A stretch of 64,000 nucleotides of DNA from Gracilariopsis chorda (Eukaryota; Rhodophyta; Florideophyceae; Gracilariales; Gracilariaceae), in NCBI GenBank assembly GCA_003194525.1, contig NBIV01000154.1, positions 1 through 64,000 on the forward strand, in the 5' to 3' direction. The stretch's first letter is position 1. Each line of letters begins with the position of its first letter. Shown here one piece after another: positions 19,252 to 58,553 of the stretch. The translations under genes and the position numbers were made by a program. Under the pieces are notes generated by a model. It had not been told where the DNA came from. It was given only the letters and a program-made list of their open reading frames with translations, and searched no databases.

Positions 19252-22200
19252 TTAGAAGGGAGCAGGGCGTAACGGGTATCGCACCTTGGCGTAACTTCTC
19301 TCCTTGTCAGCCAGATATGTCCATCCGAGTTGCCTGAACAGTGTCTCTCGGAAACCAAGAACTGCCTGCGCCTCTATCTTTCTTGATGAGCCGCTCCCGT
19401 AGTAATTATCCAATACACGCAGCGCGAACCCAGGTCGCCCTCGTCGAACTTCCCTTCTGGCCCCTAAGAATGCGAGGTCTTCACTTGTTATTGATCCATC
19501 GCACATATCGCTTCGTGAAGAGGAGCCGGGCATTGTACTCTTTCCGTCCAAAGTAACCCATCGCGCAAGCTCCTTGAATGCTTGTTCGAGTGTATCATCT
19601 TCGCTATCTGACCTATCGCTTTCCGTACCCTCGTGATGTTCTCCATTAACACCCGCCGTTTGGTCAGAGGTCGGTGGCATTCCTTCCAAAACGGTTGGGT
19701 GACATGCAGCGGTGCGCAGGCACAGCGCTCGAACCTTTCGGAACGCTGCTTCTATGAGCTGAGCACGCTTCACCTCGAACAGCTTTCGTCTACTCACATC
19801 CTCTGAGTTTTCTGTGTCGATCAACATCCCAAAGTGAGTGGCGACTGAAAATGGGTCCAGATTGGAGCTGACGGCATCTGTTATTTCTACAATACGAGTT
19901 ACTTTTTCACGGAAAGTGCTTGTCACTCCTTCTGTTCGATGCATTTTCGCTGCTTCCACGTCATGTCGTTCAAGATTGGCCATGATGAACTCCACATCTT
20001 CACTACATTTCTCCGGCAGAGAGTGGAAGATGGCATCAAAACAATCAAACTTACCATCCTTTAACAACGACCGCAGTCTCTTCAACCTCAGTTTCCGTGC
20101 CGCATCATCAAACCATTTGTCGGGATCATCATTTGATCTACTCGGGTTAGATTCTGTGCCATCCGCTTGTGTCACAGCATCGTCATCGCTCTTGTTCACA
20201 CTATCAGCAGCCGATTTGGACTTCGACTTTTCCCTGGAAGATACGCTGTCGTTCTTTGAAGAGGAGGAAATCGAGGGACCTATGAAGTACGAAACTGGGT
20301 ATGATGGGGTATAGTTTCCGCGTCTCGAACCACTACTTGACGCAGAGAGTACCTTGTCAACCCACATACTTCCAACTGCCATATCCCCAACTGCTACCCA
20401 CTTTGGAAGAGATGACCGTTTTGGAGCTGCAAAATAGAACGCTCTTCGTTCTCCACATTCAAGTGTTGTTACACTTCTGGAGGAGCGGCGCTTGTCTAAG
20501 CTCAAACATGCACCATGTGAGCTATCATACGCGTCTAGCGACACTCCACTTGGCATTTCGTATTGTACGGTCACAGTCAAATCCCGAAGTCGCTCTAAGA
20601 GATCCACTCTTTCATGACGGAGGTACGCCGTTGCTCTGTATTCTCCTTTCACAAGCGTCTGTTCCCTTGGATAAATATCCGAGGCGTAAAGGAACTGCTT
20701 ATTGCGATCGTGAACGGTAACGTATGGACCACCTTCCACTTCCGCTTCGTAAACGGCCCCATTGAGCCCAGGAAACAACAGACTCACTTTTGCAGATGAA
20801 TCGAACACTTCAAATCCGTAATCGAGCTGCAGTTGGAACACTACTCCTTCATCTGGGAGCATATCTCTCTGCTCAAGGGCTTTGATTTTGGAAGCGCTAG
20901 GTGTTACAGTTCGCTGGATTCTGTTGAGACTGCCGCGAGGTGTGTATCCAGATACATATCCAGCTCCTTGTCCTTGTGGTGCACTCGTTGGAAGGTAATT
21001 AGTAACCTCGACGCGAGGAAAACAAGACGATCCGGAAAAGCCAGTCAGAGTGGATGGTTTTGGTGATAAACCTCCAAAAGCTAGCTCAACGCTTTCTATA
21101 ACAGAATTCCCCGGAGAAGACCATAATTGAGCCAAACAAAGCTCCAGTGTACATCCCCCCTGAACCTTGAGCGTAAACTCCTTCACCATGCCTGGTCGCA
21201 GAGTACACAACTGCCTGGACTCAAGCTCTCCACAATGTAGTCTAGGTCCTAGTTGCACTACATGAATCTCGAAGCTACGGGCGTCCACACCTCCTCTCGC
21301 CCTTCGCAGAAGCAGCCTTTTTGGGTGCAGTTTGTCGATTGGATTGCCTATTGTCTTCTTCTCCGAGCTTCTCATCTTATCACTGTTGGACTCGGGCTTC
21401 TGTTCCTTAGAACTAACCCTGTGACTCTTAACCAGAGTAAACCCGCTTCCTTCTCCTGCTTGAACCTGAGTTGAGGATAAGTCAGAGAATTCCATGGAAC
21501 TTGCAACTTCAGTATGGCGGTCTCGAACATTCGACTCCATACCATGCTCATTCGTATCACGCGTAAGAACCAATGCTCCTGTACTCACCCGAAGCAAGGC
21601 GAATGTAGACCCAATCGGTGCGTCATAAAATCTTCTAATGACAGATCCCGAGGAAAATGTCAAGTCGCGTAAAGGACTTGCCATTATACCATCAACGAGA
21701 GGTTCTGGTTTGTGAACTGCAACAGGCACGCGAAATACGGGACCGCCACAAACCTTTCGCCCTCTCGTCTGTTGAACGTAGCCAAGTATTTCAGCAAAAT
21801 GGGCCCGACCGGGTGTTAGTGATGTTGGGTCAATACATGCGGAAAAATATCTGCCCCCTCCTAAGACCTCGACAGTCTGCGGCACTTCGACCCAAGATGC
21901 TTCACATTGTAAAGATATCGTGACTTCCATGTCCGCCAGAGCTCGTTTGGCATCCTCGGATTCATCATCGCATCTGACAATTTCAATGGCAACACTAGCC
22001 CGGTGCACAGAGCACGTCTGGGATTCGCCGCGAAGGAAGATTCCTCTTGTCGCATTTAGTGCTCCGAATCCTGGGTTGTTCGAACTCTTTCGTGCAGGCG
22101 AGCCATCCTCCACAGTTATTCTGATGCGCCAATCTTCTAGAAACAGTGATGAGTCTCCGCAGTTTTCATGTGTGTGATAATACTTGTCACTCTCGTCAGG

Positions 22201-24923: not shown

Positions 24924-26555
24924 ATGGGTAACGCGCAAACTCGTTCCCGTTCCCTAAACGCCTATGAGCTTCGCGAACTCGCCACTTCATGGAGCGCCGC
25001 CGCGGAGAGCTGTGTCATATCGCTTCGTCGTCGATGCCGCCGTCTCCCGCTGCTCTCTCTCATTCTGCTAGTCACGCTCGCCATCACCCTGTACGCTTTC
25101 AGTTTGCATCCCGGCTTTACACACTTTTCAATCGCAAACGTAGCCACCAGAATATCACACACCACAAGCCCGTGCACCAACAATCGTCGCCCAGCTGCAT
25201 TTCAACTCCACGCTATTCCATTTCGCTCCGCAATAAGGACCCTCGTACAAGCCAACTCCAAACCGCTCAACTCAACCCACGCAAGCAGCGCCAGTTTTCC
25301 ACCAATCTCAATCACGCCTTCACTAAAGTTAGTCACTTCCACCGTACGCAGTCGGTACGCCCGTCTCGCGCGTGCATACCTATCTCCCTTTGCAGCGCTC
25401 GGTAAGATAAGCTCCGAATCCTACATGCGCCCTTTTCTCAGGGATGACGGTCGCTGTGGCGGATGCGTTCTTCTACAAGTCACAAATCGATCCATGTTTC
25501 TGCATGATCGCCGCGGCGTGCTTACAAAAATGGCCCCCTTTCGCGCTTTGCGTTTACGAGAAGCGTTACACTGGGTTGAGTCTAGCGTTTCACGCGGTGT
25601 GGTGGACAACTTTGAAATCATCATTTCCACCACCGACAGTGTCGCAACCACGTCGAGAAACCACTCATACAGAATGCCCGATCCAGAAGAGGCCAGTCCA
25701 ATCTTTGGAACGGTTGCGTGCAACGTATCCAACAACATCCCGTTTCCGCTCGTTTTGTCGGATGTGTTGCGAAGAGGTTTGCCTCACAAGTTTTGGGATA
25801 CCCGTTCTGAAATGATTGATCAGTGGGACCAAGCAATGCGCAGTTTTGGGGAGGAGCATGCATATTCCGTTCCATGGCACCGCAAGAAAGCTATGGCGGT
25901 GTTTCGTGGTCGAATCCGAATATCCACCTTCTTGAAGCGACGAGAGATGTTTGACGACTTTTGTGACAAGGTTGGAAGAACAGCGTTGTGGGCAACAGCA
26001 CGCAAGCACAACGCTAGAATGAAAAGATGGGCAGTGCAGAAAGCAAAGAATGGACGAATATGGCCGTTGCCGACGAATTGGTTTTTACCAAGAGTTGAGC
26101 AACTGCTCGATGTTCAAGTGGACGGGACGTGCGGCAAGAGGATTTACGTTTCGGATGGCATGCCACTGCAAAAACAGGCCGAATACAAGTACATCATGAA
26201 CGTGGAGGGCAACTCGTTTTGGGCAGATAGACTTTTGCTACTGTTGTTTGGATCAAGTGCTGTGATGAAGCAAGAAACACCATGTGGAATGTTTTTCGAA
26301 CCGTTGTTGGAGGCAAATGTTCATTACATCCCTGTGGATTACTGGTTCAGGGACTTGACGAAGAGAACGCAGTGGGCGCGGCGACATGACTGCGATGTTA
26401 TGCAAATCGTGCGAAACGCGAGGCGGTTTGCCGGAGAATACCTATCTACAGCTGGTATACAAACGTACGTGGATGAGTTGTTGAAACAGTATTCGGAACT
26501 ATTAGAAGAGCGCAGGATAAAGGTAAGGCCCGGCAGCGTTCAAGTATATCCCTAG
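24924..26555 (+). CDS. GT90 (CAP10/POGLUT-like) glycosyltransferase
   Basis: A predicted Golgi or ER glycosyltransferase of 543 residues. The N-terminus has a basic patch (SLRRRCRR) and a single membrane anchor at about 41-60 (LPLLSLILLVTLAITLYAFS), giving type II topology, followed by a Ser/Thr-rich stem. The C-terminal ~300 residues match the CAP10/GT90 pattern: WHRKKAMAVFRGRIRIS, then KQAEYKYIMNVEGNSFWADRL, LLLFGSSAVMKQETPCGMFFEPLLEANVHYIPVDY and a helical end (IVRNARRFAGEYLS). Family members transfer xylose or glucose to glycans or proteins; the substrate here is unknown, but matrix glycans are plausible. Intronless. Convergent, 116 bp apart, with the RING gene. Confidence 0.88.
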   Translation: MGNAQTRSRSLNAYELRELATSWSAAAESCVISLRRRCRRLPLLSLILLVTLAITLYAFSLHPGFTHFSIANVATRISHTTSPCTNNRRPAAFQLHAIPFRSAIRTLVQANSKPLNSTHASSASFPPISITPSLKLVTSTVRSRYARLARAYLSPFAALGKISSESYMRPFLRDDGRCGGCVLLQVTNRSMFLHDRRGVLTKMAPFRALRLREALHWVESSVSRGVVDNFEIIISTTDSVATTSRNHSYRMPDPEEASPIFGTVACNVSNNIPFPLVLSDVLRRGLPHKFWDTRSEMIDQWDQAMRSFGEEHAYSVPWHRKKAMAVFRGRIRISTFLKRREMFDDFCDKVGRTALWATARKHNARMKRWAVQKAKNGRIWPLPTNWFLPRVEQLLDVQVDGTCGKRIYVSDGMPLQKQAEYKYIMNVEGNSFWADRLLLLLFGSSAVMKQETPCGMFFEPLLEANVHYIPVDYWFRDLTKRTQWARRHDCDVMQIVRNARRFAGEYLSTAGIQTYVDELLKQYSELLEERRIKVRPGSVQVYP

Positions 26556-32495: not shown

Positions 32496-35400
32496 TCACA
32501 AGAGAGTTGCATAGTCTACGCTTTCTGTCACGATATCTGCTGGTTGCATTTTCGTAGATATATACTTAACATTCACAGCACCCGTCTTTACCAGCTCTTT
32601 TATGTGGAGAAGCTTAATATCAATATGTTTGTTTCTTTCCGAAGACTTAGGCTTTTGAACGATATACAAAGCGGTTGAGCTATCAGTGTATATAGATACA
32701 GGGTACATGTTTGGCTCGTCGGCCAATACTTCCTCACGAAGGAGCCCCCAAAATAATCTACGCAACCATCGCAGAGTCTTACCGCAGTATGAGAGTGCGA
32801 TCTATTCTGCTTCGCCGGACGAGAGTGCAATCATGGATTGCTTCTTCGTCGTCCAAAGCACTGGGGCTTCGATTTACCTTTACTAGGATTCCAGTCGTCG
32901 ATTTCCTAGTATCACGACATCCAGCCCAATCCGCATCGCAAAACGCTTTCATTGGGCTACGGGTGTCCGAGGGATAGAACAAACCAAGGGCCTTGGCCCC
33001 GTGCAGGTATCGTAGCACCAGTTTACCAAGTCCAACGTGCCTCATGCACGGGTCATGGACTTGTCGCGCCAACATAGATGACGCGAACATGATGTCCGGC
33101 CTGCATGATACGGCAAGGTACATCAAATGACTAACGAGCTGTCGGTACTTCCGGTGAAGCGCAGGAGCCATGGGACGATCGCTTTAGCCTCGAGCGGAGA
33201 GGTCTGCATGCGCTGGGAGAGGAGTATCTGCGGCGTTGCAGTGAGATAGGCCATACTCTTTGAGTATCTTCTATATGTACTTCCCCTGCCGTATCGTTAT
33301 TCCGTGCTCGCTCCGGTTGATTTCTAGTCCTATGAAGGACTTTGCTTCACCCAAAAGCTTCACTTGGAAAAGCTTTTTCATTTCCTCCTTGAAGTCTTCT
33401 AGGAGGCTCCTGGAGTCCGATGACATCAGGACGTCGTCAAAAACGACTACCAGGATAACTAAACCACTGCCAGACTTGTATATGTACAAGCGGCTTCTGT
33501 TGTGGACTGCTGGAATTGGAGGCCGGTGAGTTCCTTGTGGAACAGCGATCCCCATATATGTCCTGCCTGCTTTGCCCCATAGATTTACTTTTGAAGCAAG
33601 CAAACCTTTCCAGGAACATATCCCGATCCCGTAGAGTTCTGTGGCTGTTCCATGATTAGAGGTTCGTCCAGGTCCCCGTACAGGTATGCATTGCTAATAT
33701 CCAGCGTTTCCAGTACGAGTTCTTGTGCTGCAGCCTTCGCAAGTAGGAGGCGAATGGTTTCCTGCCTTGCAACTGGAGCATATAGTCCGTCCGGGTCAAA
33801 TTCGATGTATGGGCGTTGGAGGTCGCCCCGTGGAACACATCGTGCTTTGGGTAAGATATGGTGAGGGTCTGGGCCAATAATCTTTGCGATGAATGTCCAG
33901 AGAAAGGGGAGTGGTCGCATTCCTGGTTCTTTATTCACCAGTACCCAAGTCTTCCTATCGACAAGCGCGTTATATTCCCGGTCGATTGCCTCCGCCCACA
34001 CTGGTATTCTCCGCGCTTCATCAAAGTTTCTAGGGATGCTGCCACCATCCCTGAGGTACTTGGAGCGCGTGTGAGAAACCATGCATAGAGCCAGTGCTGC
34101 ATCGAGGTGTTCCTCGACAGTTTCTTGTCTGGCCATTTCTGCTTCGGACCTCCTCCAAGACGAGAAGTCGATAAGGTCATGGATCGAAGGAAGCTGTTCC
34201 CTGGTGACCTTGAAGTCCCGTGCGCGTGTAATGATGACTTTGCGCTCGGTGGGGACATAGATCCTATAAGGGGTGCGGTGACTCTGCATGCCGACGAAGT
34301 GTCCCGGTACTGCACGTGGGAGCAACTTCTTGTTTTTCGCAGTCTCCGGGCGATATATGAAAGCATGCCCATGTTGTCCGAACTTGAGTAAGCTCGAGAA
34401 GTCCGGCTTCCTACCGAACCATATGGTGTAGGGCACTTCGATCCCAACTCTGGAGTTGGGTAGGCGATTGCGCAGATAGTTCGCGTGGGATATCGCCTCT
34501 TCCCATAGCTCGGGTGGTAGTTTTGCGGCATGTAGGAATATTCGCGTCATCCTCCACAGATCTTGTATGATCTTTTCCGTGGCTCCATTCGATTGATGCG
34601 CGTAGGGGGGTGCATACTCTGGGATCAATCCGTTTTTTCTTTTGCAAACGTTACGAAGTCGTCCGATCGATTCTCACCCGCCCTGTCAAGGCGAACTCGA
34701 AAGAGCCGCAGTGGGGTTTGTTCATTTTCCGCGCAAGCCTTGTACCATCGGCCCGATTCAAAGAATTGCGGCTTTGAACTTAGGAAGTAAAGTGCGCATG
34801 CCCTGCTATTATCGTCGAGCAGGACGTGTAGATATGTCGAACCCTGTAACGACGGGGGACTTATTGGTCCGGTTAAGTCCGTATGGGTTAGCTCCAGAGG
34901 ACGGCGTGCTACTTCGGTTGATTGCGTAAGTGGCGCGCGTTTGGCACCTCCTTCGCTGCATGGAGAGCAGTGAATGTTTCGGAGTTCATCTGGGGATAGA
35001 TTTGGGATGCCTTCGGACCTTTCTATGCTTTGCAGCAGTCGGTCCGACCCTGGGTTGCCTAGCTTCTCGTGCCAATCTTTTGCTGTGTCCCCGGGTTTGC
35101 GCATGGCTGCATGTGCGCGTTCCGGTCGAACGGGGTTTGGTAGTATATGCAATCCGTCCCTTGGTGGGACTTGGTATACCGTTCGACCAGAGAAGCGATC
35201 TTTAATTTCGAAGCCGTTTGTGGAGGAGTACATCACATCAATGTAGTCCGAAAGGACTTTGAGTGAAACTAAGTTAGAGTCGAAGGATGGAGTGTACTTG
35301 GCCGGCAGTGTAACGCCATCGCCAATTGGTAGTAGTATTGTTCCCCTGCCTTTAATGTCATTGTGTTGGTCACATGTTCGCACAACTTCGTCGTTGGTTT

Positions 35401-36460
35401 CGACAAAATCCGTAATGAGGTCCTTGTCGTTTATGAAAACATGAGTAGCACCAGAATCTAGAAATGTACTAGTTTCCTTTGCGCTGAGACAACTGTACTG
35501 AGCGCGTGCAACTAAACCACGAGCTGTGTGGCTGTTGTAATTGTTGTTGTTGTTTTGTTGGCGATTGTAATTGTGACTGGAGTTGCGTTCCGTCTCCCAG
35601 GGGCGATAGTCTCTATCGGAGGACTGATTGTTACCTCTCCCAGAGATGCCACTATTGTTCCCGTTGTTGTTTTGATTGGACTTGGAACCGTTGTTCTGAG
35701 GGCTTTCAGAACGAATTTTTCCAATGCGGCCACATTTCCAGCACTTAACACCCTTCTTCTTGTTCCCCTTTCCGCGGGTCTTCTTGTTCGTTGAAGACTT
35801 CTTTGCTGAGGGGTACGGGTGCTTCGTGCTTCCTTGGGTGTCGGAGCCTTTTGTCGTCGCATTCAATTTCCGATGTTTTCGAAGGTCCATCTCCGATCGA
35901 ACAAGTGATATGACTTGATCGTATTCCATGTTGTTGGCATCGGCCAGCAGCGTAATTGCCATTAAAGAGTCAGGCAACGTACGCAATAGGGTGACTGTGC
36001 GTTCCCTATCTGACGTCGGGTTCCCGAGGCGAGCCAATTCGATGAATATCGTTTCCAGTTCCAGCAAGTGCTTCTGGATATCATCATTGTCGTTGAACGA
36101 AAGGCAGTTCAACTTTTGCCGGAGGTTTTGTTTCGACTGGATGTTGTCCTTCTTGAATGCGGATTCCAGTTTTCTCCATACCTCCAGTGCGGAACATGTT
36201 CCCTGTTCCATCAACTTGGAAACTGCAACGATGGGTTGAGTGCCGAGGTTTTGCACGATGGCAGATCTTGCCTTCCTGTCCGCAGCATCCCATCTTCTGC
36301 GAGCATGGGCAGTTCCATGATCAGGCCGCGGGACGGTCAGGACTAAGAGTGTGTCCTGAAAATGCATGTGGTCGCAAACGTAGATACGACATGTATAATA
36401 GTCGGCGTTACCCTTGAGACGAGGAATGCGTTTTGACTCAGGGTCCCTGTCCACTTCCAT
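32496..36460 (-). pseudogene. Copia gag-pol polyprotein, frameshifted
   Basis: Order on the minus strand: gag (from the ATG at 36460), a zinc knuckle (CWKCGRIGKIRSES) in which His and the last Cys are lost, protease FLDSGATHVF, GAG-pre-integrase, integrase (DLTGPI, LDRAGEN), RT (PEGLYAPVAR-like segment, LETLDISNAYLYGDLDEP) and RNase H (FCDADWAGCRDTRKSTTG, TDSSTALYI). The frame shifts in an A6 run near 34640 inside integrase, near 33590 inside RT, and again near 33200 and 32780. The catalytic RT motif reads VVVFDDVLM, with Phe at the usual Tyr/Val position. It is therefore not autonomous. It is closely related to the fragment at 5.2-6.3 kb. Confidence 0.88.
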
Positions 36461-39934: not shown

Positions 39935-42900
39935 TCAATTCTCTAGAATTGTTGGTCTTCTTACATATGGGACCAGGCGTCGAGCGTGGATAGGACTCCT
40001 GCTTATCTTTCCATGCCTTGAACTTAGAGTATAAGCAGGATGCTTAGCTCTAATGATCGTACAAGGACCATAGAACTTGGATGTAAATGGGGGCCATTTC
40101 TTGGCCTTGTTCATACTTGCTCCTCGAGCTACTAGGACTTCGTTTCCTACATGAAAGACTTTATCCTTAGCAGCTTGCTGGGAGTTTGCATGCTTCAGGG
40201 CTCGCGTGGCTCTGTGACGCAAGGCAGACTCTAATTCCACCCCACGATGTAAGTCGCCCCCGCTTAGGACGAGAGCGGATGGGTCATCTTGCGACATAGG
40301 TGGGGGAACACCATACAGCAATTGAAATGGAGAAGGCCCATTTCTTAGATGACGGCGCCTATATCCATACAGTACCTTCTGTAGAAATTCGTCCCAAGGC
40401 TCTTGGTATTCTAAGATGCTCTTCGTCATGGACTTCTTTAGAATGCCAATCATCCGTTCAGCTCTGCCGTTCGACATTGGTGCATATGCCATCACCATTT
40501 TCCAAGTGATGCCATGGTGGTTGTTGAATTCTGACAGAGTTTTTGCAGTAAAACTGTTAGCATTATCAGAGACCACGGTGCAAGGCGGGCCGAATGGGGT
40601 CACGATTTCATCTTTTAGAAATTCAATCACTTCCTTGGCGGTTGATGTCGGTGTAGCTTTCGCAATCGGCCAACCTGTTACATGCTCTACTCCTACCAAC
40701 ATGAATCTATTCTTCCTAACTGTCGTGGGTAGAGGTCCTGCAAAATCGATAGAAAACGTATGAAATAGGCCCGTCAAGGGGTATCGGAGCGTAGTTCGAT
40801 ACGTCGGAATATTCTTTGCGGACTGGTATCCACCACAACTGCTTATATACTCCGTAACATGCTTGTATACCTCTGGCCAACAGTAACGTTCAAGCAAAAA
40901 TTGCTTGGTACTATTAACGTCCCAGTGTCCAATATCATCATGAAACATTCTTAAGATCTGTAGTCGGTTCCTTACTTCTGGTATGACTAGAGGTCCTTTC
41001 TTAGTTCTACGGAAGAGTCTTTCATTCCACACCATATAATTCTTTGCGTTCCTCTTAATCTTGCGACGCTCGAGGGGGTCCTTAGTCTCCAATGTCAACC
41101 CCAAGATGTAGTTCCCTGTATCAACAAGGAATTGCTCTAAGTCTTCGAGTATCGGTCTTTCCGAGGAAACTGCTAGTACTACTGCATTGGTCTCCTCTTC
41201 CCCAGATACTTCAATACGCGACAAGTAGTCTGCAACACGGTTACTTGCTCCTGGCCTGTACTTTATCTCAAATTCATATTCCGAAAGAAAATCAATCCAT
41301 CTTGCCAGTCTCCCATGGACATCTCGTTTTCTAAATGCATACTGCAAGGCCTGATGATCAGTAATGAGTGTAAATGGGAGGGAGGATAGCAAGTAAACAC
41401 GAACATTCTTCAACGCAAAGATGACCGCTACTGCCTCGCGTTCGCAGGCTGAATAACGTCTCTCGGCGGCTGTCATCGTACGACTGGCAAACTGTATAGG
41501 ATGTAGTTTGCCCTCCTTCTTATGAGAAAGTACTGCCCCTAGGGAAACACTGGATGCATCAGTTTCAACTATGAAGGGTTCATTAAAGTCAGGAAATCCT
41601 AGAACGGGGGGTTTCATTAACTTTGCTTTGAGACTTAGGAAAGCATCTTCCATTTCTGGTGTCCAGAGCCATGTTTTCTTAGGTGACGTGGCTTCATGCA
41701 AGGCAGCAGATGCTTCAGCGAACCTGGGTATGAACCGTCGATAATGACTGGCCAGTCCTAAGAAACTTCTTAGTTCCGTCGCGGAGGTTGGACATGGAGC
41801 TTCCTGTATGGCTTTGATCTTTTCTGGGTCCGTCGCAACTCCCGTCTTATCCATGATATGTCCTAAGAGCTTCACCTGAGGCTGCCCAAAACTACACTTA
41901 GCCAGTTTAATCTTCAATCCATGTGAGGCAATTCTGCCAATAACTCTTTTGCAATGCATAAGATGATCTTCTATATTGTTGGAGTAAATAACAACGTCAT
42001 CCAAGTAGACACGAACGAAAGATAAGTCTTTCAGTACAGCGTCCATCATTCTTTGAAATGTGGCAGGTGCATTCATCAATCCGAATGGCATGACTTCAAA
42101 TTTAAATGTACCGAATCTCCAGATGAAAGTCGTCATCTCTTTGCACTACTCTGCCATCTTCACCTGCCAATACCCTGAAAACAAGTCTAGAGTTTTGAAT
42201 AGTGAGGATCCACGAAGATCATCGAACACTTCTTCTATGCAAGGTAATGGCCAACGATCGGACTTCATTTTGGCAATCAATGCACGGTAGTCCACGGAAA
42301 ATCTCGGGCTTCCATCTTTCTTTGTCGCGATTACAATAGGGAAAGACCAGGCAGAGTTTGCTGGCGTAATGATTCTTGTACGAAGCATTTTGTCAACCTC
42401 ATCCTTTACCAAGTCATTATGTCGCGGTGGGAGACGTCTTGCATGAAAAGTTAAAGGTCCTGGATCCTTTAGCTCAAAAGAATGCTTCAAAGGGACATCA
42501 GCAGGTCTGAGGTCCTCCAGGGACCAAGCAACGGCCTTTGAGTCTATAAGGGTCGTAGAGAGCTGCCTCTGTGCCCGCTCCGAGAGATGCTTGACCTTTG
42601 TTGCGAGCAATGCCGATTTTAGGTCTTCTTCCTCTTCGGTCAGGTTCAGCACATGTAGCTCCCCTTCTTCAATATCACTATCTTCATCTTCTTCTAATTG
42701 CAGGGGGATGGTTTCTTCCCGATCGCTCTGAGAATTCGTTATTGGGTGAGATTCGATCTCCATCGCAAGAGCCACGACAAGCTCTTTATCGTCATCAATT
42801 TCCGAACTGGAAGACGCTGGGTATATCTCTGAGTCTGAGGTGAAATCCTCACTATCGGTCTCGGAACCTTCCATATCGGGGATACGTTCATCATACTCTA

Positions 42901-44592
42901 GATCTAATACGGATTCTTTCTCTTCTATAGTCACAGTCACTGTATGATTTCCCATGTCGATGCAGGTCTGAATGTTCTCTAAGGTTGGGGAACCGATAAT
43001 CACATCCACTGGTGGGTCATCAACAACTAAAAAGTTTAAAAGGGTCTTGGACTCACCAAACAGCACAGGTACGTCTCTGACGACACCTCGTACTACACTA
43101 GAGCTTCCATCAGCGACTTTAATCTTCCTCGTCGTCGTTTTCGGTGAGAGCGTAAGTTCTTCCATCAGAGAAGTGGAGAGAAGGTTTGGAACCGCTCCTG
43201 AGTCCAGCAATGCGTTAACTCTAGTTCCGAATAGCTTCAACTTCACCACTTTTAGTCTTCTGATACTTCCAGGCCTATGCGTGATAGCAACCTTTTGACT
43301 TCTAGCATTCTTCACAAACAGTTTTTGAATCTGTCTTTTTGCTTCTTCGGCATCTCCACGGAGCAGCTGGCCAAATATGAGCCCACATGAAGCATTTGCC
43401 AACTCAATGAGAACATTGTACCGTCCTACGAAGTCTGAAATTCCATCTTTTCGGGCCGTCTGGGCCTCCTTCCGGGCCGGCTTGCGGGATTTAGGCTTGG
43501 CCTTCTTCCGACTTGGTAGGCCCTTCGTAAGGTCAATGACTGGACCCGGCTGAGGGTTGAGTAACTCTCTCACAGCCAATCTTCCTGTCTTTGGCTGTTT
43601 CGGCAGCGCCCTGCCCTCAGCATCTCTCTTCATAGCATTGAAAGTCTCTTCTTCTTCGACTTCTTCAGTCACTATTCCCACTGTGTAGTCTTTATCCTTT
43701 CCTGAGTCTTTCAGTGTGTCTCCTTCTGTTTTCATATGTGTTTCATTGGCAGCGACGGCGGGCTGTAGCATCTGGGGCTTTGACCAACACGTAGTTTCTG
43801 AGTGTCCCATCTTCCCACACCGTGGGCATCTGGTATTCCGGTTGGGATTCTTGTCACAGCGGTTCGCTCCATGTCCTGGCTTGTGGCAGAATGAAAAGGC
43901 ACGAATATTGTTCTCCTTGGTCGAAGTTTGTTTCTTCTTAACCAAGAGGGTGAGTTCCGCTATCTGAGAGGTGAGATCATCTACCTTGTTCTCCAATGAC
44001 TCCACCGTTTGTTCGGGGCAACGGAGAATCCTCATAGTGTGAGGTCGCTTACCTTCTCCTCCTTTCCTTTTTCCAATGTAGGCTTCACTGAAAGTTTCTT
44101 GGCAACGAACATAGTCCCGACTGGTACGCTTGAGCGATTCGTAGTCGCGTGAACCTCTTAACAACACGTATTGATCCAGGTCCATATGTTCCATGACTGC
44201 ATTTCTGAGCAATCCAAACTTAGCTTCATTGTTGAAGCCAGCTTTCTTGAAAACGCCATCCATTTCTGTCAGAGAACTAGCCATGTCCAACGGACGGAGC
44301 TTGCATTTCATGGCTCTTCGTATATACTCTTCCTGACTAGCCACTTAGAAAATTCTTCGATCATAGCTTGCTTCAAAGCAGCGTAGTCATATGCTTCTTC
44401 AATTAACTGTCCTTCGTACGCGTAGGTTTCGTAATAGAATTCAAACGCCTTTCCTGTCAAACACGGCAGGAGTTGCGTTGCTTTTTCCGAATCGTTAGTG
44501 TCTTTCGCGACAACATTGTCAAAGAAAAAGAAGAATTACACTACATTCGAGTCAGGTTCACCATTGAACACAATTGCTGAAGACGACGACAT
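39935..44592 (-). pseudogene. Gypsy gag-pol polyprotein with three lesions
   Basis: Gag starts at the ATG at 44592, 32 nt from the 5' LTR. It is broken by TAA at 44536-44538 and by a 1-nt shift near 44343. The long frame then runs gag (zinc knuckle CPRCGKMGHSETTC near 43800), protease LLDSGAVPNL, and RT (FSVDYRALI) to an amber stop at 42146-42148. The same frame resumes at once with MTTFIWRFGTF, then NAPATFQRM, catalytic VYLDDVVIYSN, RNase H (ETDASSVSLGAVLS, ITDHQALQY, GASNRVADYLSR) and integrase with its three acidic residues (SIDFAGPL, VVSDNANSF, GRAERMIG). The integrase zinc site has CGGY in place of CxxC. No chromodomain is seen at the C-terminus. Confidence 0.9.
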
Positions 44593-45450: not shown

Positions 45451-47553
45451 ATGGCCCCGTCCACAGATCTTCGCAGAACTGTTGGAACAACTGTCAACAG
45501 TCGTGCTCGTCTGGTTACAAATGACGCTGAATGCAAACGTTACTACGGATCTCTATGGAAGTCAACAACGGTACACGGTTCTGTCCTCAATGTTGACATA
45601 CGTAACATCAACAATCGAAATCTCACTTTTCTGACTGTGAAGTTTCGTCTACCGAACCGAGAAAAAGAAGTAACTCTACCTCTATCTAGTGTCAAGCTAG
45701 GTACCGGTGTTGACGAAGCCGTGAATGCTGCAGAAGAGCCTATTACCGAGGTTGAACCCATTAATACGCAAAATATCGAGGAAGATGCTCTTGTCACACC
45801 ATCTCAGATGCAAGTTTTGCAGCCGCAAACAAGTTCATTAAGCGAAAATGCACCTGTCCAATCAACTGTGATTCACGGTCGTGTGTGGGAAACCTGTACG
45901 ACGTTGAGTCCTCTGAATGGTTGTATGCAAATGCATCAGTGGAAAGTGGTTGGCCCAGCTGGAGATTTTATCTCACCGCGTCACGTTCCTCCAAACATGA
46001 GTGCATTAGATTTCTTTCTTTGGATGTTCCCTATGCAGCATTTGCAGTTCATAGTGAACAGAACAAATGTTCGGTTAGAAAGCAAAGACGTTCGGAGGAC
46101 TTCAGGGGGAGAATTGCTCAAATTCTTTGGAATTCTTATCCTCATGACTCGCATTGAGTTCTCTAACAGACGGGATCTTTGGAGCCTCGAGCCTTTTTCT
46201 AAGTTTATTCCTCAGCCAAATATTGGTCTTGCGATGTCACGGAACAGATTTGAAATGCTTAGAAGTTCAATATGCTTCAGCGGAAATGGTGTGACTGAAG
46301 AGCAGGGAATCGCGCGTTGGTCCTTCGTAACAGATTTTGTGAAGGCAATCAATGACCATCGTCGGTCTTTTGTCACGCCATCACATGCCTTATGTGTTGA
46401 CGAAGGAATGTCACGATGGTACGGATTAGGCGGTAATTGGATTGATGTCGGGCTTCCGCACTATACGGCATTAGACAGAAAGCCGGAAAATGGTCTTGAA
46501 ATGAAGGCCGTATGTTGTGCACGAAGTGGCATAATGCTGAACATTGAGCTCAATATGGGTGCAAATATTCCGGAACAAGTTTTTGATTCTGATAACGCCC
46601 ATGGAACGGCAGTCTTACTTCGCTTAGTGCAACCATGGTTTGGATCAGGACGGTTGGTATGTGCGGATTCCTTTTTTGCGTCTGTCAGTACAGCGAAAGC
46701 ATTACTGGAAAAAGGTTTAAGGTTTACTGGAGTTGTCAAAAATGCTACTCGTGAATATCCGATGACACATCTCTCCGAAACTACTTTATCAGACAGGGGA
46801 GATTTTGTATCTATGCTATCGAAAGGAAGCATTATCAATAATGATATAATGGCTGTAATGTGGATGGACAGAGAAAGAAGGTATTTCGTATCAACCTCTG
46901 GCACGGTTAGTCCTGGCTGTCCTATTATTCGAGAAAGGTGGAGACGGGAGGGAAATATTTCTAAGAAAGTGGAAATGGAGGTCGCAATTCCCGAAGTGTG
47001 TGAAGAGTATTACAAAAACTGTTCAATGGTCGATCGCCATAACAGATGCAGACAAGATGATCTGAATCTGGAGAAGAAAATTGAAGTGAAAGAGTGGTCA
47101 TTTCGAGTGAACTGCTCTCTTTTATCGATTTGTATTGTGGACGCCTGGAAGTTGTACAAAGCCGCAAATGGAACCCGAAACGTGAAAAGTCCGCACCACT
47201 TCTATTGCCAGTTGGCTGATGAACTAATTGAGAATACATGGGATACCACAGGTCTAATGAGCAGAGATGAGCAAGAATGTGAAAATGATCATGAGAAGCC
47301 AATGTTTGCAGGCACTGGCTTGCATTTAATGCAGACGAATAGAAGGAGAAAAAACAAGGATGGCAAGATTACAAAAGCTTTATATCAAGGACGATGCAGT
47401 TTCTGCAAAGGTAATACAAAGTCCAAGTTTTTATGTTCTGGGTGCTATATCAGAAAGGAAAAAGAAGTGTTTTTATGTCACACTGGTACTAATAGAGATT
47501 GTTTTATGAAACACATTGAAGAGTGTCACGGTATAATGAAGTTCAGAAGCTGA
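45451..47553 (+). CDS. piggyBac-type transposase (DDE)
   Basis: An intact 700-residue transposase. Residues 1-170 are variable and N-terminal. The catalytic region follows the piggyBac pattern: ALDFFLWMFP, GGELLKFFGILILMTRI, then the three Asp residues D317 (CVDEGMSRWYG), D406 (VCADSFFAS) and D473 (WMDRERRYFVST). Near the end come SMVDRHNRC and WSFRVNCSLLSICIVDAWKLY, then a Cys/His-rich tail (CSFCKG, CSGCYIRKE, CHTGTNRDC, HIEECH) resembling the family's C-terminal zinc domain, which binds the element ends. The start was taken at 45451, but an upstream out-of-frame ATG at 45353 might affect translation. With frame and triad intact, the element could still be active. Confidence 0.9.
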   Translation: MAPSTDLRRTVGTTVNSRARLVTNDAECKRYYGSLWKSTTVHGSVLNVDIRNINNRNLTFLTVKFRLPNREKEVTLPLSSVKLGTGVDEAVNAAEEPITEVEPINTQNIEEDALVTPSQMQVLQPQTSSLSENAPVQSTVIHGRVWETCTTLSPLNGCMQMHQWKVVGPAGDFISPRHVPPNMSALDFFLWMFPMQHLQFIVNRTNVRLESKDVRRTSGGELLKFFGILILMTRIEFSNRRDLWSLEPFSKFIPQPNIGLAMSRNRFEMLRSSICFSGNGVTEEQGIARWSFVTDFVKAINDHRRSFVTPSHALCVDEGMSRWYGLGGNWIDVGLPHYTALDRKPENGLEMKAVCCARSGIMLNIELNMGANIPEQVFDSDNAHGTAVLLRLVQPWFGSGRLVCADSFFASVSTAKALLEKGLRFTGVVKNATREYPMTHLSETTLSDRGDFVSMLSKGSIINNDIMAVMWMDRERRYFVSTSGTVSPGCPIIRERWRREGNISKKVEMEVAIPEVCEEYYKNCSMVDRHNRCRQDDLNLEKKIEVKEWSFRVNCSLLSICIVDAWKLYKAANGTRNVKSPHHFYCQLADELIENTWDTTGLMSRDEQECENDHEKPMFAGTGLHLMQTNRRRKNKDGKITKALYQGRCSFCKGNTKSKFLCSGCYIRKEKEVFLCHTGTNRDCFMKHIEECHGIMKFRS

Positions 47554-48473: not shown

Positions 48474-50753
48474 TCACACAGCTTCCTTCTGAACAGCCTT
48501 GACCGCTGCTTTCGTCGTCAGCTTTGCGCGTAGTTTCGACGCTACTTGCTCAACATCCTCAGCGCCAGAGACAGCCTTCTCAGAAGCTGCTTTCTTATCC
48601 ACTATCTCAGTCACTACAGTTGCAGGCTTGCTTTGCGCGTCGGCTGCCTTCCCCTCTTTCTGCGCAGCTTCCTCCCACGTCTCATAGCAATAGTACACCT
48701 GGCACGTGCGTGCAGGAGCATACACTTGTATGTAGTATGGTCTGTTATGCCACGGTTCAGTATTCGTCGTGTGGACCACATCCCAGTGCACTCTTCCATG
48801 TCCACCAGTGTTCGTGCCATCCGAATCAAGAACCAACTTATACCGACCACCCCAATAAGTGCCAATACGATAATCAGAATACGATTGATTATGATGGAAG
48901 TTAAACACGAACAGCAGACGATCGCCCTTTTCAACGACGACCAGCTTGTCACCTTCGTGTGACAAAACGACATACTGATGTGCCTGGAAATGGAGGAACG
49001 GATGTTCGTCGTCCAAAGCGTGCGCCATCTTCTCAAAAGCGTACAAATGCTTATAACGTAGCGACTGATTGTCGCAAAGATCCCAGCGACGACGTGCATG
49101 TTGGTAAGAGTTGCCGTTTCCTTCACGCGGGAAATCAATCCATTCTGGATGACCAAACTCATTGCCCATGAACGTAAGGTAACCTTCACCCGATAAGCAC
49201 ATGGTCAACAGTCTGATCAACTTGTGCAGCGCAATTCCACGCTCGATGGTGGGGGAAGGGTATCCATCGCAGCTCATATCAGTGTACATAGCGGCATCCA
49301 TAAGCCAAAAGGCAATAGTCTTGTCCCCAACCAACGCTTGATCATGACTTTCGCAGTACCCAATGGTCTTCTCGTTCCAACGGCGATTGGTAAGAGTGAA
49401 CACAATATTACCCATATTCCAATTCTCGTCCTTCTCCTTTTCAAGAACCTCGATCCACATGTCGGGAATGGCCATGGCCAAACGGTAGTCGAAACCGAGT
49501 CCACCATGTTCAACAGGGACACAAAGAGTAGGCATGCCGCTGACGTCTTCAGCGATAGTCACGGCCACATCAGGATGCAAGTCATGAAGTAACTTATTGG
49601 CAAGCATCATATAAACACAAGCATCAACATCAACCTGCAGTCCAAAGTATTCATTATAGTTGCCAGTGAACTGCACACCAATGCCAGAATGAAGGTACAA
49701 CATGGAAGTGATACCGTCGAAACGGAAGCCGTCAAAGTGATACTCCTCCATATACCATCTAAGATTGGAGAGCAGGAAGCGAAGAACCTCCCAATGACCA
49801 TAGTTGAAGAGCCTAGAATCCCACAACGAATGCCTTCCACGTTCTCCTTCATGGAAGTACTGGTGGTCTGTGCCATCGAAGTTATTGATACCGTCCATGG
49901 AGTTACTGGAGGCATGTGAATGGACGACATCCATGAGCACGTACAATCCGAGCTGATGTGCCTTATCGATGAGGTACTTGAGATCCTCGGGTGGCCCACA
50001 GCGAGAGCTGATGGCAAAGAAGTTAGTAACGTGGTATCCAAAACTGGCATAATACGCATGCTCCATAATGGCCATGATTTGCAAAGCAGTGTAGCCAGTG
50101 TTCTTAATACGCGGAAGAACGTTGTCAGCAAACTCTCTGTATGAGCCGACCTTTAGATCGTTAGTGCCCATGCCGACATGACACTCGTAAATACGAAGCG
50201 AAGAGGGTCGCTTGACGTGATCTGGACCAATCCACTTGTACTTCTCCGGGGGGTTCCAGAAGACGGTATCATACAGAAATGTGTGCGGGTCTTGCACGCA
50301 GAAGGTTGCCCACGCCGGGTTGCGGTCGAGCCACGGACCGTGATGGGGCACAACGGCAGCCTTCACCTTGGTGCCGTGCTTGATAGCCGGGACGCCCGGC
50401 TCAGGATCCGGAATGAAGCAGGACCATATGCCAAATTCATCGCGCTGCATAGGGACAGAGTGACGATCCCAGTTGTTAAACTCGCCAAAGAAGAACATTT
50501 CGCGGGCGCTGGGTGCCCATTCGCGGTAGCGAATGCCTCCCTTGACGCGCTGGATTCCCATAGTTTGATATCCGCGTGAAAAGTTGTCGAGGGACTTTTC
50601 GCTGGACTCGATGGCGGACAGAATCTCGGAAAACTTGGCATAGCGATAACGCAGGGCATCTGCAAAGGGCTCCAAGTAGCGATCATCGCGGATGCATGCG
50701 GTGCCGTCTTTCTTATCCTTCCAGGCGGAGTAGTGGGGGTCTTCCGAGCCCAT
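48474..50753 (-). CDS. GBE1: 1,4-alpha-glucan branching enzyme (GH13)
   Basis: Makes alpha-1,6 branches in storage glucan. The protein is 759 residues from the ATG at 50753 (MGSEDPHYSAWK). The longer frame upstream begins at a non-ATG codon and is not enzyme-like. Layout: N-terminal CBM48 (about 65-160, YREWAPSAREMFFFGEFNNWD), then the GH13 barrel with DVVHSH (275-280), nucleophile Asp346 (GFRFDGIT), acid/base Glu402 (TIAEDVSG) and His470-Asp471 (ESHDQALVGDK), and a C-terminal all-beta domain. It is close to eukaryotic glycogen-type enzymes in length, plus a ~60-residue Ala/Lys-rich tail. No transit peptide is seen, as expected for floridean starch, which is made in the cytosol of red algae. 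Confidence 0.95.
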   Translation of the reverse strand: MGSEDPHYSAWKDKKDGTACIRDDRYLEPFADALRYRYAKFSEILSAIESSEKSLDNFSRGYQTMGIQRVKGGIRYREWAPSAREMFFFGEFNNWDRHSVPMQRDEFGIWSCFIPDPEPGVPAIKHGTKVKAAVVPHHGPWLDRNPAWATFCVQDPHTFLYDTVFWNPPEKYKWIGPDHVKRPSSLRIYECHVGMGTNDLKVGSYREFADNVLPRIKNTGYTALQIMAIMEHAYYASFGYHVTNFFAISSRCGPPEDLKYLIDKAHQLGLYVLMDVVHSHASSNSMDGINNFDGTDHQYFHEGERGRHSLWDSRLFNYGHWEVLRFLLSNLRWYMEEYHFDGFRFDGITSMLYLHSGIGVQFTGNYNEYFGLQVDVDACVYMMLANKLLHDLHPDVAVTIAEDVSGMPTLCVPVEHGGLGFDYRLAMAIPDMWIEVLEKEKDENWNMGNIVFTLTNRRWNEKTIGYCESHDQALVGDKTIAFWLMDAAMYTDMSCDGYPSPTIERGIALHKLIRLLTMCLSGEGYLTFMGNEFGHPEWIDFPREGNGNSYQHARRRWDLCDNQSLRYKHLYAFEKMAHALDDEHPFLHFQAHQYVVLSHEGDKLVVVEKGDRLLFVFNFHHNQSYSDYRIGTYWGGRYKLVLDSDGTNTGGHGRVHWDVVHTTNTEPWHNRPYYIQVYAPARTCQVYYCYETWEEAAQKEGKAADAQSKPATVVTEIVDKKAASEKAVSGAEDVEQVASKLRAKLTTKAAVKAVQKEAV

Positions 50754-55943: not shown

Positions 55944-58553
55944 TCAGCAGATAGCACTAATCTGTTCAGCGTGTCGCGACAATCTCAATCCATACCGACC
56001 AAATACTTTCTTGTACAGTTTGGCGATATCGCAGCGGTTACGGTCAAATTCTTCGCCGGAGAATCCGACATCGGTGACCAGCTTCGCTACGTCCAAGCCA
56101 TGTACAAGTCTTTTGTCATAATACGTCGTGTACGGCACTTTCATTCTCTCGACGAGCTCCAAAACACGGTGATCCGGAGCAATCACAAATGCTGGAATTC
56201 CCGCCCCAAGTGCTATCATGTTCCCGTGTATTCTTGCTCCGAAAGCGACGTCCATAGTGCGGAGACTTTCCATCCATTCTTCGGCGTCACTAATAAACCG
56301 CAATCGTTTGAACGGAATTCCCGCCTCCTTCATCTGCGTCAAATCCTCAAGGGTTTGTACATACATGTAGCTGTTGGGGTATTCCTCGAGTAAACTAGCC
56401 AAGAAGCCAGTGATCTTCTTTTGCGGCTTCATATTGATCGCAACTTTCAAAGTGCGATCTCCTATCCTTCGCTTTAACGCTTCATATTTCAGTTGAAGAG
56501 AACGCCCGAGATGAACGTCGTTGTTAATGAAGAGACTAGGACATCCCGCAGCAACACCGTACTCGTATCCTGCCAACCGAGCAGCTTCGAGAGTAAAGCT
56601 TCCACGCATAAGCATTGGAACCTTGTGAGCTTGCATCGTCTGGAGCATTGCCTTCGCTGGTTCAGTGAACTCAAAGTCCTTCGCGCTGGTACGAATCTGT
56701 TCACCTGGGGATAGATCCTCGACTCTTATATTGCGCTGAAAACTGTGCTGTATGCCAATACCAATGAGTAGCATAACATCACCGTCCTCTTCCACAACGC
56801 GACGCTCGAACTCAAAAAGCATCTGTACCCCGAGATCAAAGATGTTGGCAATGGGTCGGTAATAGAGCATCTTCCTGTCTTCCACTTCAGGTACTTTCTT
56901 CGAACATACACTGCGCGTTCTGTTGCATGTGAGAGAAGAGGTGAAGTCGACAAGTCTATGCATCGTGGCGTACTGCCATACCAGGTTGCCATGATTCTTT
57001 CCAGTGTCCTTGAGTGCTTCTTCATATCGCTTATATACAATGTCTGCCCTTGGATACTTTACGCAATTGCTCACCACATACTTTTGGATTGAGTCGCCAT
57101 TTGTAGTTGAAGAAAATGCGATCGGGTGCTCATGAGTACGTGAAGATAGCGCGGTGGCGTTGGAAGTCTCACCTCGTAGATCTGAATCTCCTAATGATGG
57201 CGCTTGCCTGTCTTTCCCAAAGGAGAGGGTCTGTACTGAAACAGGAAGGGTAAGAGTATGATTCGGTGCAGAAAGTGGTGAAGTGGTTTTGGAGATGTCG
57301 GGAAGGGAAGGGCTTTTCTCAACAGCATCCCTGCAAGAGGAAAAAATGACAGCCAACAGAAGAAGGAACTGAACCGCCAAAAAAGTCCGCTTACTGTTCC
57401 GCCTGCTTTTCATCGCGTCCGTTTCTTTTCCGGCAAGATACAATGGAAACCCCATACCAGCCAGCGCGAGACCAGCAATGTGCGACAGGTTCAATGAGTC
57501 TCCAAGGACAATTGCCGATATGATAATCCCACTAAACCGCTTCAGCGTGTTCAATAAGGAGTGTGTGAGCGCATCCATCATTTCCAACAAGGCGATACTG
57601 GCGAACTGGTATGAGTTGAACAGTACTGCGTTGCGCAGAAGATATGGGAAAGATGGCATTGAAAACCCGTGAAAGATCAGCTTGTAAAGAAGGATGAGAA
57701 CGCCAAACGGAAGGCTACACACTTGGAGCATGAAGAAACGTTGTTCTGTTGTCATGTTCTTCGACAATGATCTTTGGTCTCTCTTCATGAGAATGTTTCT
57801 CAATGGTAAACAAAGGTTTGCCAAAACAATAGGTGATACGGTAAGAACGGTAAATGAGTGTTCAGAAAACATGATAACTCCACCAAGGACCATCAACATA
57901 CCGAAGAACGATAGTACGGACGTGGGCTCACCGAGAATAACTCGTTTCAGCAGAAGGGCTGCAAGCGGCTCAGTAAGCTTCCACATAAGCGTAGATGTAG
58001 ACCCAATCAAACGGTACGAGGAATTTGTGAGCAACGTCCCAACAAGATGAAAGAAGCCTATCGCTAGCGCTATGGTTCTGAAAGGTCGCAGACTGAACGA
58101 GAAGAAGCGGTTGTCTTGTTGAAGGCTAGGCGTGGTTTCCTTACCCTTCGTTTGCAGTACAGAGGGTTTAGAGAGAGACAACATGTACGCCATTAACATT
58201 CCGACAAGAATCTGCGAAAACGATAGATCGACAAAGAGAAGATCCGAGGGGAACTTCGTAAGTAGTAATTGGGCATCGATAGCATAAATGCTGTTGCATG
58301 CCCACCATACGAGAAACAGAATAGCAAGCAATGATACGCGGGAATAAGATGGGCCACGAGTCAATGCTGTGAAACTGACGATACCAACCATATCGGTGAA
58401 AGATATGATCAGACCCAAGAAGAGTACCAGTCGGCTTTGAAGGAGTTTAAGAACTGTGAAACGCAGAGTGTAATATGGGAGAAGCTTGTGGGCGGAACAG
58501 GATGCAAGTAGGAGGAAGAACCGCTGGGTGTACGAGAGGTAACATGATTTCAT
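55944..58553 (-). CDS. Fusion of TPT/DMT-type transporter and polysaccharide pyruvyltransferase
   Basis: One uninterrupted 869-codon ORF from the ATG at 58553. Residues ~35-375 form a multi-pass transporter (about ten hydrophobic helices) with triose-phosphate/nucleotide-sugar translocator features: STLMWKLTEPLAALLLKRVILGE, and HSLLNTLKRFSGIIISAIVLGDSL. A basic loop (KSRRNSKR) and one extra helix (about 390-407) lead to a Ser/Thr-rich stem with N-glycosylation sequons (N431, N465, N544). Residues ~520-869 match the WcaK-like pyruvyltransferase family: DVMLLIGIGIQ, GARIHGNMIALGAGIPAFVIAPDHR (the key His is 776) and VERMKVPY. That domain transfers pyruvate from phosphoenolpyruvate to sugars. 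The extra helix would put it in the Golgi lumen. Transport of PEP by the first half is an inference from the fusion. Confidence 0.88.
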   Translation of the reverse strand: MKSCYLSYTQRFFLLLASCSAHKLLPYYTLRFTVLKLLQSRLVLFLGLIISFTDMVGIVSFTALTRGPSYSRVSLLAILFLVWWACNSIYAIDAQLLLTKFPSDLLFVDLSFSQILVGMLMAYMLSLSKPSVLQTKGKETTPSLQQDNRFFSFSLRPFRTIALAIGFFHLVGTLLTNSSYRLIGSTSTLMWKLTEPLAALLLKRVILGEPTSVLSFFGMLMVLGGVIMFSEHSFTVLTVSPIVLANLCLPLRNILMKRDQRSLSKNMTTEQRFFMLQVCSLPFGVLILLYKLIFHGFSMPSFPYLLRNAVLFNSYQFASIALLEMMDALTHSLLNTLKRFSGIIISAIVLGDSLNLSHIAGLALAGMGFPLYLAGKETDAMKSRRNSKRTFLAVQFLLLLAVIFSSCRDAVEKSPSLPDISKTTSPLSAPNHTLTLPVSVQTLSFGKDRQAPSLGDSDLRGETSNATALSSRTHEHPIAFSSTTNGDSIQKYVVSNCVKYPRADIVYKRYEEALKDTGKNHGNLVWQYATMHRLVDFTSSLTCNRTRSVCSKKVPEVEDRKMLYYRPIANIFDLGVQMLFEFERRVVEEDGDVMLLIGIGIQHSFQRNIRVEDLSPGEQIRTSAKDFEFTEPAKAMLQTMQAHKVPMLMRGSFTLEAARLAGYEYGVAAGCPSLFINNDVHLGRSLQLKYEALKRRIGDRTLKVAINMKPQKKITGFLASLLEEYPNSYMYVQTLEDLTQMKEAGIPFKRLRFISDAEEWMESLRTMDVAFGARIHGNMIALGAGIPAFVIAPDHRVLELVERMKVPYTTYYDKRLVHGLDVAKLVTDVGFSGEEFDRNRCDIAKLYKKVFGRYGLRLSRHAEQISAIC

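Follow-up and report, generated by a model that had tools for sequence, protein, structure and literature searches.

A gene of the red alga Gracilariopsis chorda that fuses a phosphate-translocator-like carrier to a putative ketal-pyruvyltransferase

In the first 64,000 nucleotides of contig NBIV01000154.1 of the red alga Gracilariopsis chorda (assembly GCA_003194525.1; this stretch is referred to as the window), a single uninterrupted reading frame at 55944-58553 on the minus strand encodes a TPT/DMT-type transporter at its N-terminal end and a polysaccharide pyruvyltransferase domain at its C-terminal end, the two being linked by an eleventh hydrophobic helix followed by a variable stem. The frame starts with ATG and comprises 869 codons plus stop, and its translation is free of internal stops. 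All features of this fusion lie on the same strand (-) and are given in window coordinates. Judged from sequence, the polypeptide probably exchanges phosphoenolpyruvate (PEP) for phosphate and also acts as a ketal-pyruvyltransferase that is tethered to a membrane of the secretory pathway. The most likely site is the Golgi apparatus, where it would serve the pyruvylation of wall galactans. The fused gene itself, which a preliminary description of the window had noted without database searches, is confirmed, and the observation is strengthened by a second copy in the same genome.

Both halves of the protein exceed the curated Pfam cut-offs. TPT (PF03151) matches aa 76-372 with 86.6 bits (2.6e-24; cut-off 30) and PS_pyruv_trans (PF04230) matches aa 650-795 with 29.9 bits (7e-7; cut-off 25.3). 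The second copy (copy 2) resides on contig C287 at 14691-17162 (+). It is full-length, has the same order of parts and no internal stops, shares 48-49% identity with the window copy (49% over query residues 9-869) and also scores above the cut-offs, with 72.4 bits for TPT and 37.5 bits for PS_pyruv_trans. Since the same plan recurs at full length on another contig, the fusion is not an assembly join, a possibility that the preliminary description had raised against itself and that is hereby ruled out.

A search of the genome (91.3 Mb, 1081 contigs, seven phycobilisome-linker matches as fits a red alga) with the whole protein yielded four matches at E <= 0.01, i.e., the protein itself, copy 2 and two transporters on contigs C1 (4.5e-5) and C98 (0.0057) whose frames comprise 388 and 441 aa. 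We count these two in favor of a PEP/phosphate exchanger because they are phosphate translocators of the group bearing the residue triad described below. The PF04230 profile matched only twice, both times within the fusions, while the same search was positive in 8 of 14 control genomes; a free-standing pyruvyltransferase of this family was thus not detected in the genome. PF03151 matched 21 times, with frames longer than 700 aa only in the two fusions. The nine PF08449 and the two PF04142 carriers reside in open frames of at most 453 and 371 aa, respectively, none of which is long enough for an enzyme fusion.

Comparison of the two copies argues for an old duplication. Their synonymous difference is saturated (pS 0.82), whereas the transporter half shows a nonsynonymous difference (pN) of only 0.29 at 58% identity, the enzyme half one of 0.36 at 51.6%, and the stem (aa 411-499) one of 0.59 at 18.8%. 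Saturation combined with low pN in both halves indicates that both have been kept by selection since the duplication, whereas the stem drifted and yet stayed open. From base composition, and taking codons as independent, we estimate the chance probability of a linker free of stops at about 0.002 for the 123 codons of the window copy and about 0.008 for the 98 aligned linker codons of copy 2. In a search that skipped simple repeats, the 331 linker bases at 57100-57430 found a single match in the genome, namely themselves.

The transporter half (aa 76-375, 57429..58328) was assigned to the TPT/DMT family by Pfam, hydropathy and charge, alignment and trees. Hydropathy reveals most of its ten hydrophobic helices, and the weaker ones were placed by alignment. 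Our structural reference was the Galdieria translocator GsGPT (5y78), which we take to be the structure that carries Lys204, Lys362 and Arg363. The residues of the 5y78 chain aligned to this triad are 115, 273 and 274, and the constant offset of 89 fits the published numbering. Lys204, Lys362 and Arg363 are reported to make up the phosphate-recognition region in the structure of a plant-type triose-phosphate/phosphate translocator (PMC11661312, citing Lee 2017). By alignment, their counterparts in the window copy are Lys192 (57978..57980) and Lys338-Arg339 (57537..57542), and copy 2 has the same three residues. The K/K/R triad is present in 5 of the 20 aligned TPT-family members of the genome: the two fusions and the loci L008, L009 and L010. 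L012 has R/K/R, and in the remaining 14 the third residue is not arginine. The comparison covers 20 of the 21 TPT-family matches; one on contig C23, which has no locus, was left out here and in all trees. Two further residues of GsGPT whose roles we presume, T188 and Y339, have identical counterparts in T176 and Y315 of the fusion. In a six-row alignment, the first triad lysine is preceded by LTN.S in the fusions and in L009 (contig C26:273105-274040), but not in L008, L010 or GsGPT.

Maximum-likelihood trees agree with the distribution of the triad. A first tree, computed from 20 rows that did not include GsGPT, grouped the transporter halves of the fusions with L008, L009 and L010 at a support of 97/97. 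When GsGPT was included, the grouping with L008, L009, L010 and GsGPT received 96/98 (21 rows) and, after dropping L012, L015, L026 and L027, 100/99 (17 rows). Alternative placements of the fusion halves were then evaluated by the approximately unbiased test (p-AU). With 17 rows, placement with L014/L018, L013/L023, L011, L021/L022, L019/L024/L025 or L020 was rejected in all six cases (p-AU 0.00008-0.0037), and with 21 rows the same held true for L014/L018, L013/L023, L011, L021/L022, L012 and L015 (6 of 6, p-AU 0.0037-0.029); L026 and L027 were left out of these tests. An earlier constraint lumping L011, L013, L014, L018 and L023 had given p-AU values of 0.041 and 0.013. These five do not form one group, and the lumping itself was penalised, so that this constraint was replaced by the single placements. 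In its sequence relationships the transporter half groups with plastid-type phosphate translocators and not with nucleotide-sugar-type members of the family. L012 (contig C155:73529-74431), a TPT-family protein of 427 aa from the first Met, sits on a long branch adjoining the plastid-type group and is possibly a further phosphate-ester carrier.

The enzyme half (aa 500-869, 55947..57056) was identified by Pfam PS_pyruv_trans and by tblastn against plasmids. With aa 490-869 as query, the latter found 122 records at E <= 0.01. Fifteen of the 20 listed rows bear the annotation polysaccharide pyruvyl transferase and the other five bear none, and the best match among these 20 has an E value of 5e-15 at 23.6% identity. 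An alignment of both copies with three bacterial relatives contains 31 invariant columns, and the identity to the bacterial proteins is 22-23%. For CsaB, R148, H308 and K328 are reported to be critical for PEP binding, and R148, R306, H308 and K328 of CsaB correspond to R217, R337, H339 and K361 of Pvg1 (PMC10435577). In the fusion, Arg650 (56604..56606) is the counterpart of CsaB R148/Pvg1 R217, and the motif R774-I-H776-G-N (56220..56234) is that of CsaB R306/H308 and Pvg1 R337/H339. R796 follows H776 at a distance of 20 residues, which is exactly the spacing of K328 and H308 in CsaB, and thus occupies the place of the lysine. CsaB is reported to tolerate arginine instead of K328 with a roughly eightfold lower kcat (PMC10435577). 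R650, R774, H776 and R796 are invariant in all five aligned sequences. The assignments to CsaB and Pvg1 rest on motifs and spacing shared with the bacterial relatives rather than on an alignment with CsaB or Pvg1 themselves, and in these terms the PEP-site residues are predicted to be kept.

The preliminary description had called the enzyme WcaK-like. Its membership in the PF04230 pyruvyltransferase family stands, and the more specific label proved loose. Of the NCBIfam pyruvyltransferase profiles, only CsaB matched the window copy (19.5 bits, far below the cut-off of 213.1), the WcaK profile matched copy 2 alone (E 0.017), and the bacterial relatives share an N-x-G-N motif with the fusion. 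A search of the PDB with the enzyme-half profile returned five rows with E values of 0.26-1.3, none of them a pyruvyltransferase, and did not retrieve Pvg1; a Butyrivibrio relative as query returned four rows (E 0.65-0.67), again without a pyruvyltransferase. The enzyme half had no match in phages. Searches by short peptide patterns, which remote relatives could escape, confirmed no relatives of the whole fusion in viral contigs, none of the enzyme half in genome and viral contigs, and none of two bacterial pyruvyltransferases.

A ten-helix carrier is followed in the fusion by one additional hydrophobic segment. As stated in the preliminary description, this eleventh helix exists; it is signal-anchor-like by hydropathy and charge and spans aa 390-408 (57330..57386) in the window copy and residues 372-390 of the frame of copy 2. 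It is hydrophobic in both copies in spite of only 14.7% identity over aa 377-410. The preceding basic loop (aa 376-389, 57387..57428) contains six Lys and Arg residues, as against seven in the corresponding loop of copy 2, and is predicted to be cytosolic from its charge. If the N-terminus is cytosolic, 19 Lys and Arg fall among the 86 residues of the inner loops and 2 among the 27 of the outer loops in the window copy, compared with 18 among 84 and 4 among 27 in copy 2. This positive-inside pattern would put the pyruvyltransferase into the lumen rather than into the cytosol, the location that the preliminary description had named as speaking against its proposal; the borders of the loops were set by us, so that we regard the charge count as support rather than proof. 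Helix 11, with its basic side predicted to be cytosolic, and the adjoining stem resemble the membrane anchor of a type II Golgi enzyme. All five cysteines in the enzyme half of copy 2 are conserved in the window copy, which fits an oxidising lumen. The stem (aa 409-499, 57057..57329) of the window copy has the N-glycosylation sequons N431 and N465 already pointed out in the preliminary description. Neither recurs in the stem of copy 2, so that the sequons are not a conserved feature of the fusion.

Two observations concern the N-termini. The window copy contains an extra hydrophobic stretch at aa 42-60 (58374-58430), before the transporter domain, that lacks a counterpart in copy 2. If it spans the membrane, the count of helices from the N-terminus shifts and the charge pattern of the later loops does not. 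In copy 2, the frame ahead of the first Met (L003:2162-2311) encodes a stretch similar to aa 9-36 of the window copy, with a score of 44 that was reached by 1 of 2000 shuffles, yet an in-frame TGA parts this stretch from an upstream ATG. Copy 2 may therefore begin elsewhere than at its first Met.

These features can be combined into a mechanism. Transfer of a pyruvyl group consumes PEP and frees phosphate. The ten helices of the transporter half would import PEP, as the presumed substrate, from the cytosol. Helix 11 would make one more crossing in the style of a type II Golgi enzyme, after which a flexible stem would connect it to the catalytic domain on the luminal side. There, the enzyme half would transfer pyruvate from PEP to a sugar, most likely to the 4,6 positions of galactose in an agar-type galactan, an acceptor that is likely by analogy, and the phosphate released would be returned by the transporter half, one out for each PEP taken in. 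PEP could be handed over directly from carrier to enzyme, and the scheme does not require such channelling. In Galdieria, GsPPT is reported to exchange PEP strictly for inorganic phosphate (Pi), and PPTs in general take up PEP against Pi (PMC5948301). With a carrier of this type, the same chain would export phosphate one for one, and such stoichiometric closure would make the fusion sensible beyond mere proximity. In its fullest form, our reading has donor import, pyruvylation and export of the by-product locked 1:1 as a closed cycle at the Golgi membrane, which evolved when a phosphate-translocator-type carrier was recruited to the secretory pathway, with the old duplication serving two acceptors or two tissues; for this extended version we see the chances as evenly balanced.

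The closest functional parallel is found in Schizosaccharomyces pombe, where Pet1p and Pet2p are reported to carry PEP into the Golgi for Pvg1p (PMC6801904), a type II membrane enzyme that pyruvylates galactose. Galactose pyruvylation from PEP in the Golgi with a dedicated carrier is what is predicted for the fusion, and R217, R337 and H339 of Pvg1p have counterparts in it. In contrast to the yeast system, in which enzyme and carriers are separate proteins, the red alga combines them in one chain. The fusion itself is strong evidence, at the level of sequence, as to which carrier would feed the pyruvyltransferase. The plastid phosphate translocators (TPT, PPT, GPT, with GsGPT as the structural example) are similar in family, triad and tree position. 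They differ from the fusion transporter, which is highly divergent, joined to an enzyme and predicted to belong to the secretory pathway. Bacterial ketal-pyruvyltransferases (CsaB, WcaK and plasmid-borne relatives) have PF04230, the PEP-site arginine and the RxHG motif in common with the enzyme half, but the three that were aligned have no transporter part and are only distantly similar.

An agar-type acceptor is in line with the chemistry of related algae. Pyruvylated agarans are reported from some Gracilaria species (PMC7511586), and published accounts of the steps to be expected in agar biosynthesis include pyruvyltransferases (PMC5970526; PMC9319447). In the agarophyte Gracilaria changii, the transcript GC_3116, comparable with the fusion by annotation only, is annotated as polysaccharide pyruvyltransferase and was found to be lowered under sulfate deprivation (PMC5402284). 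Pyruvate ketals add acidic charge to red algal galactans, and experimental knowledge of the wall-building enzymes is described as very limited (PMC7511586). One gene now offers a candidate enzyme as well as a candidate donor carrier for wall pyruvylation. If our reading is correct, it is a natural example of covalent coupling between a transporter and the enzyme for which its cargo is the substrate, and PEP entry into the Golgi becomes a question that can be tested with a single protein. The fusion represents a new arrangement of two known kinds of proteins; we found no report of a transporter-pyruvyltransferase fusion in the open-access literature, to which the search was confined.

Several observations weigh against a PEP/phosphate exchanger of this kind. 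The branch leading to the transporter half is very long (3.6-4.2 changes per column), and a position beside L009 could not be distinguished from one beside L008/L010/GsGPT (p-AU about 0.5). L009 is presumably the PEP-type translocator of this alga, which we assume on the basis of plant motifs and treat as a lead only. We chose the groups for the placement tests with the first tree already in view, which renders the p-values somewhat generous. TIGR00817, the profile of the plastid phosphate translocator (pPT) subfamily, scored 52.5 bits with the window copy and 53.0 bits with copy 2, well below the cut-off of 317.9, and by this measure the fusion transporter is a relative and not a member of that subfamily. 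The window protein alone matched 5y78 with an E value of just 0.013, compared with 1.7e-6 for a profile of both copies. In the enzyme half, a residue of the acceptor site deviates. Pvg1 D106 is assigned to acceptor binding (PMC10435577), and its exchange for alanine is reported to abolish almost all activity on lactose (PMC4872226). By motif spacing, its place is taken by N523 within N-x-G-N in the fusion, as it is by asparagine in the three bacterial relatives, to which the motif is common. The acceptor pocket may therefore differ from that of Pvg1. Taken together, the interpretation put forward in the preliminary description is partly supported, and well so with respect to anatomy and ancestry, while we infer its functional side from sequence.

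In principle, the transporter half could be a phosphate-translocator-like carrier of another substrate, or it may have lost transport altogether and act as a Golgi anchor or retention signal, with PEP being provided by a separate carrier. The very long branch and the low pPT profile score speak for this alternative. In addition, the genome encodes other carriers, e.g., L012 with its R/K/R triad, and pPTs as a group are reported to exchange several phosphate esters with Pi (PMC5948301). On the other hand, a mere anchor would not need K/K/R, which is kept in both copies, and the transporter half is better conserved than the enzyme half, both in identity and in pN. The fused partner enzyme, moreover, needs PEP. 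We therefore consider this explanation unlikely, albeit the most serious competitor of a PEP/phosphate exchanger in the secretory pathway.

Considerably less probable is a location in the plastid envelope, with the enzyme residing in the intermembrane space or stroma and acting on a plastid glycan or lipid. It is true that the closest relatives are plastid-type translocators and that the N-terminus of the window copy is basic and nearly devoid of acidic residues (8 Lys and Arg versus 1 Asp and Glu in aa 1-75), and that 80 residues precede its first-helix motif, a number similar to the 86 of L010. However, copy 2 has only 25 residues before this motif compared with 100, 335 and 86 in L008, L009 and L010, each counted from the first Met, and thus offers little room for a transit peptide; the start of L009 with its 335 residues may be mis-set. 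The predicted type II anchor, the stem and the conserved cysteines suit the secretory pathway, and we know of no plastid glycan with pyruvate ketals, which we also count against a plastid protein.

It is very improbable that the transporter half is a nucleotide-sugar carrier and feeds something other than PEP. TPT-family proteins of the endomembrane system are mostly nucleotide-sugar carriers, and in the same genome L022, one of the 14 members without arginine at the third triad position, matches GDP-mannose transporters of solved structure (1.4e-18). A link to a known nucleotide-sugar carrier was obtained by search for L022 only; L014 had no hit in a search of the PDB, and for the other family members we presume the nucleotide-sugar-type label. 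The identity as a nucleotide-sugar carrier is rejected by the K/K/R triad, by the trees and by the placement tests, in which grouping with L021/L022 (p-AU 0.0002 with 17 rows, 0.011 with 21 rows) and with L014/L018 (0.0006 and 0.008) failed. A grouping with such carriers, which the preliminary description had held out as evidence against its proposal, did not appear, and the plastid-type translocators were found as neighbors instead with 96-100% support. Finally, the idea of two genes that were joined by an assembly or reading error, or that give rise to separate transcripts from one locus, can draw on an in-frame Met before helix 11 in both copies (aa 382 in the window copy), albeit at different alignment columns, and can practically be dismissed in view of the full-length copy 2 with the same order on another contig, the lack of stops in the linkers of both copies, although synonymous sites are saturated, and linker DNA that matches itself alone in the genome.

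About 1 kb downstream of copy 2 and on the same strand lies an open reading frame of 1049 aa (L003:5675-8824; C287:18174-21320, +) with a family-2 glycosyltransferase and a Gb3-synthase-like (alpha-1,4-glycosyltransferase) region, which found itself as the sole match in a search of the genome. This glycosyltransferase might build the glycan that is modified by the fusion. Elsewhere in the window, retroelement genes (copia-type gag, aspartic protease, reverse transcriptase, RNase H and integrase) as well as a DDE_Tnp_1_7 transposase are distributed over 34625-36460, 39935-44311 and 45451-47553. Single open frames encode a CBM48/alpha-amylase-type enzyme that we read as starch-branching-like (48474-50753), a family-90 glycosyltransferase (24924-26555) and a tripeptidyl peptidase II of 1666 aa (19252-24252).

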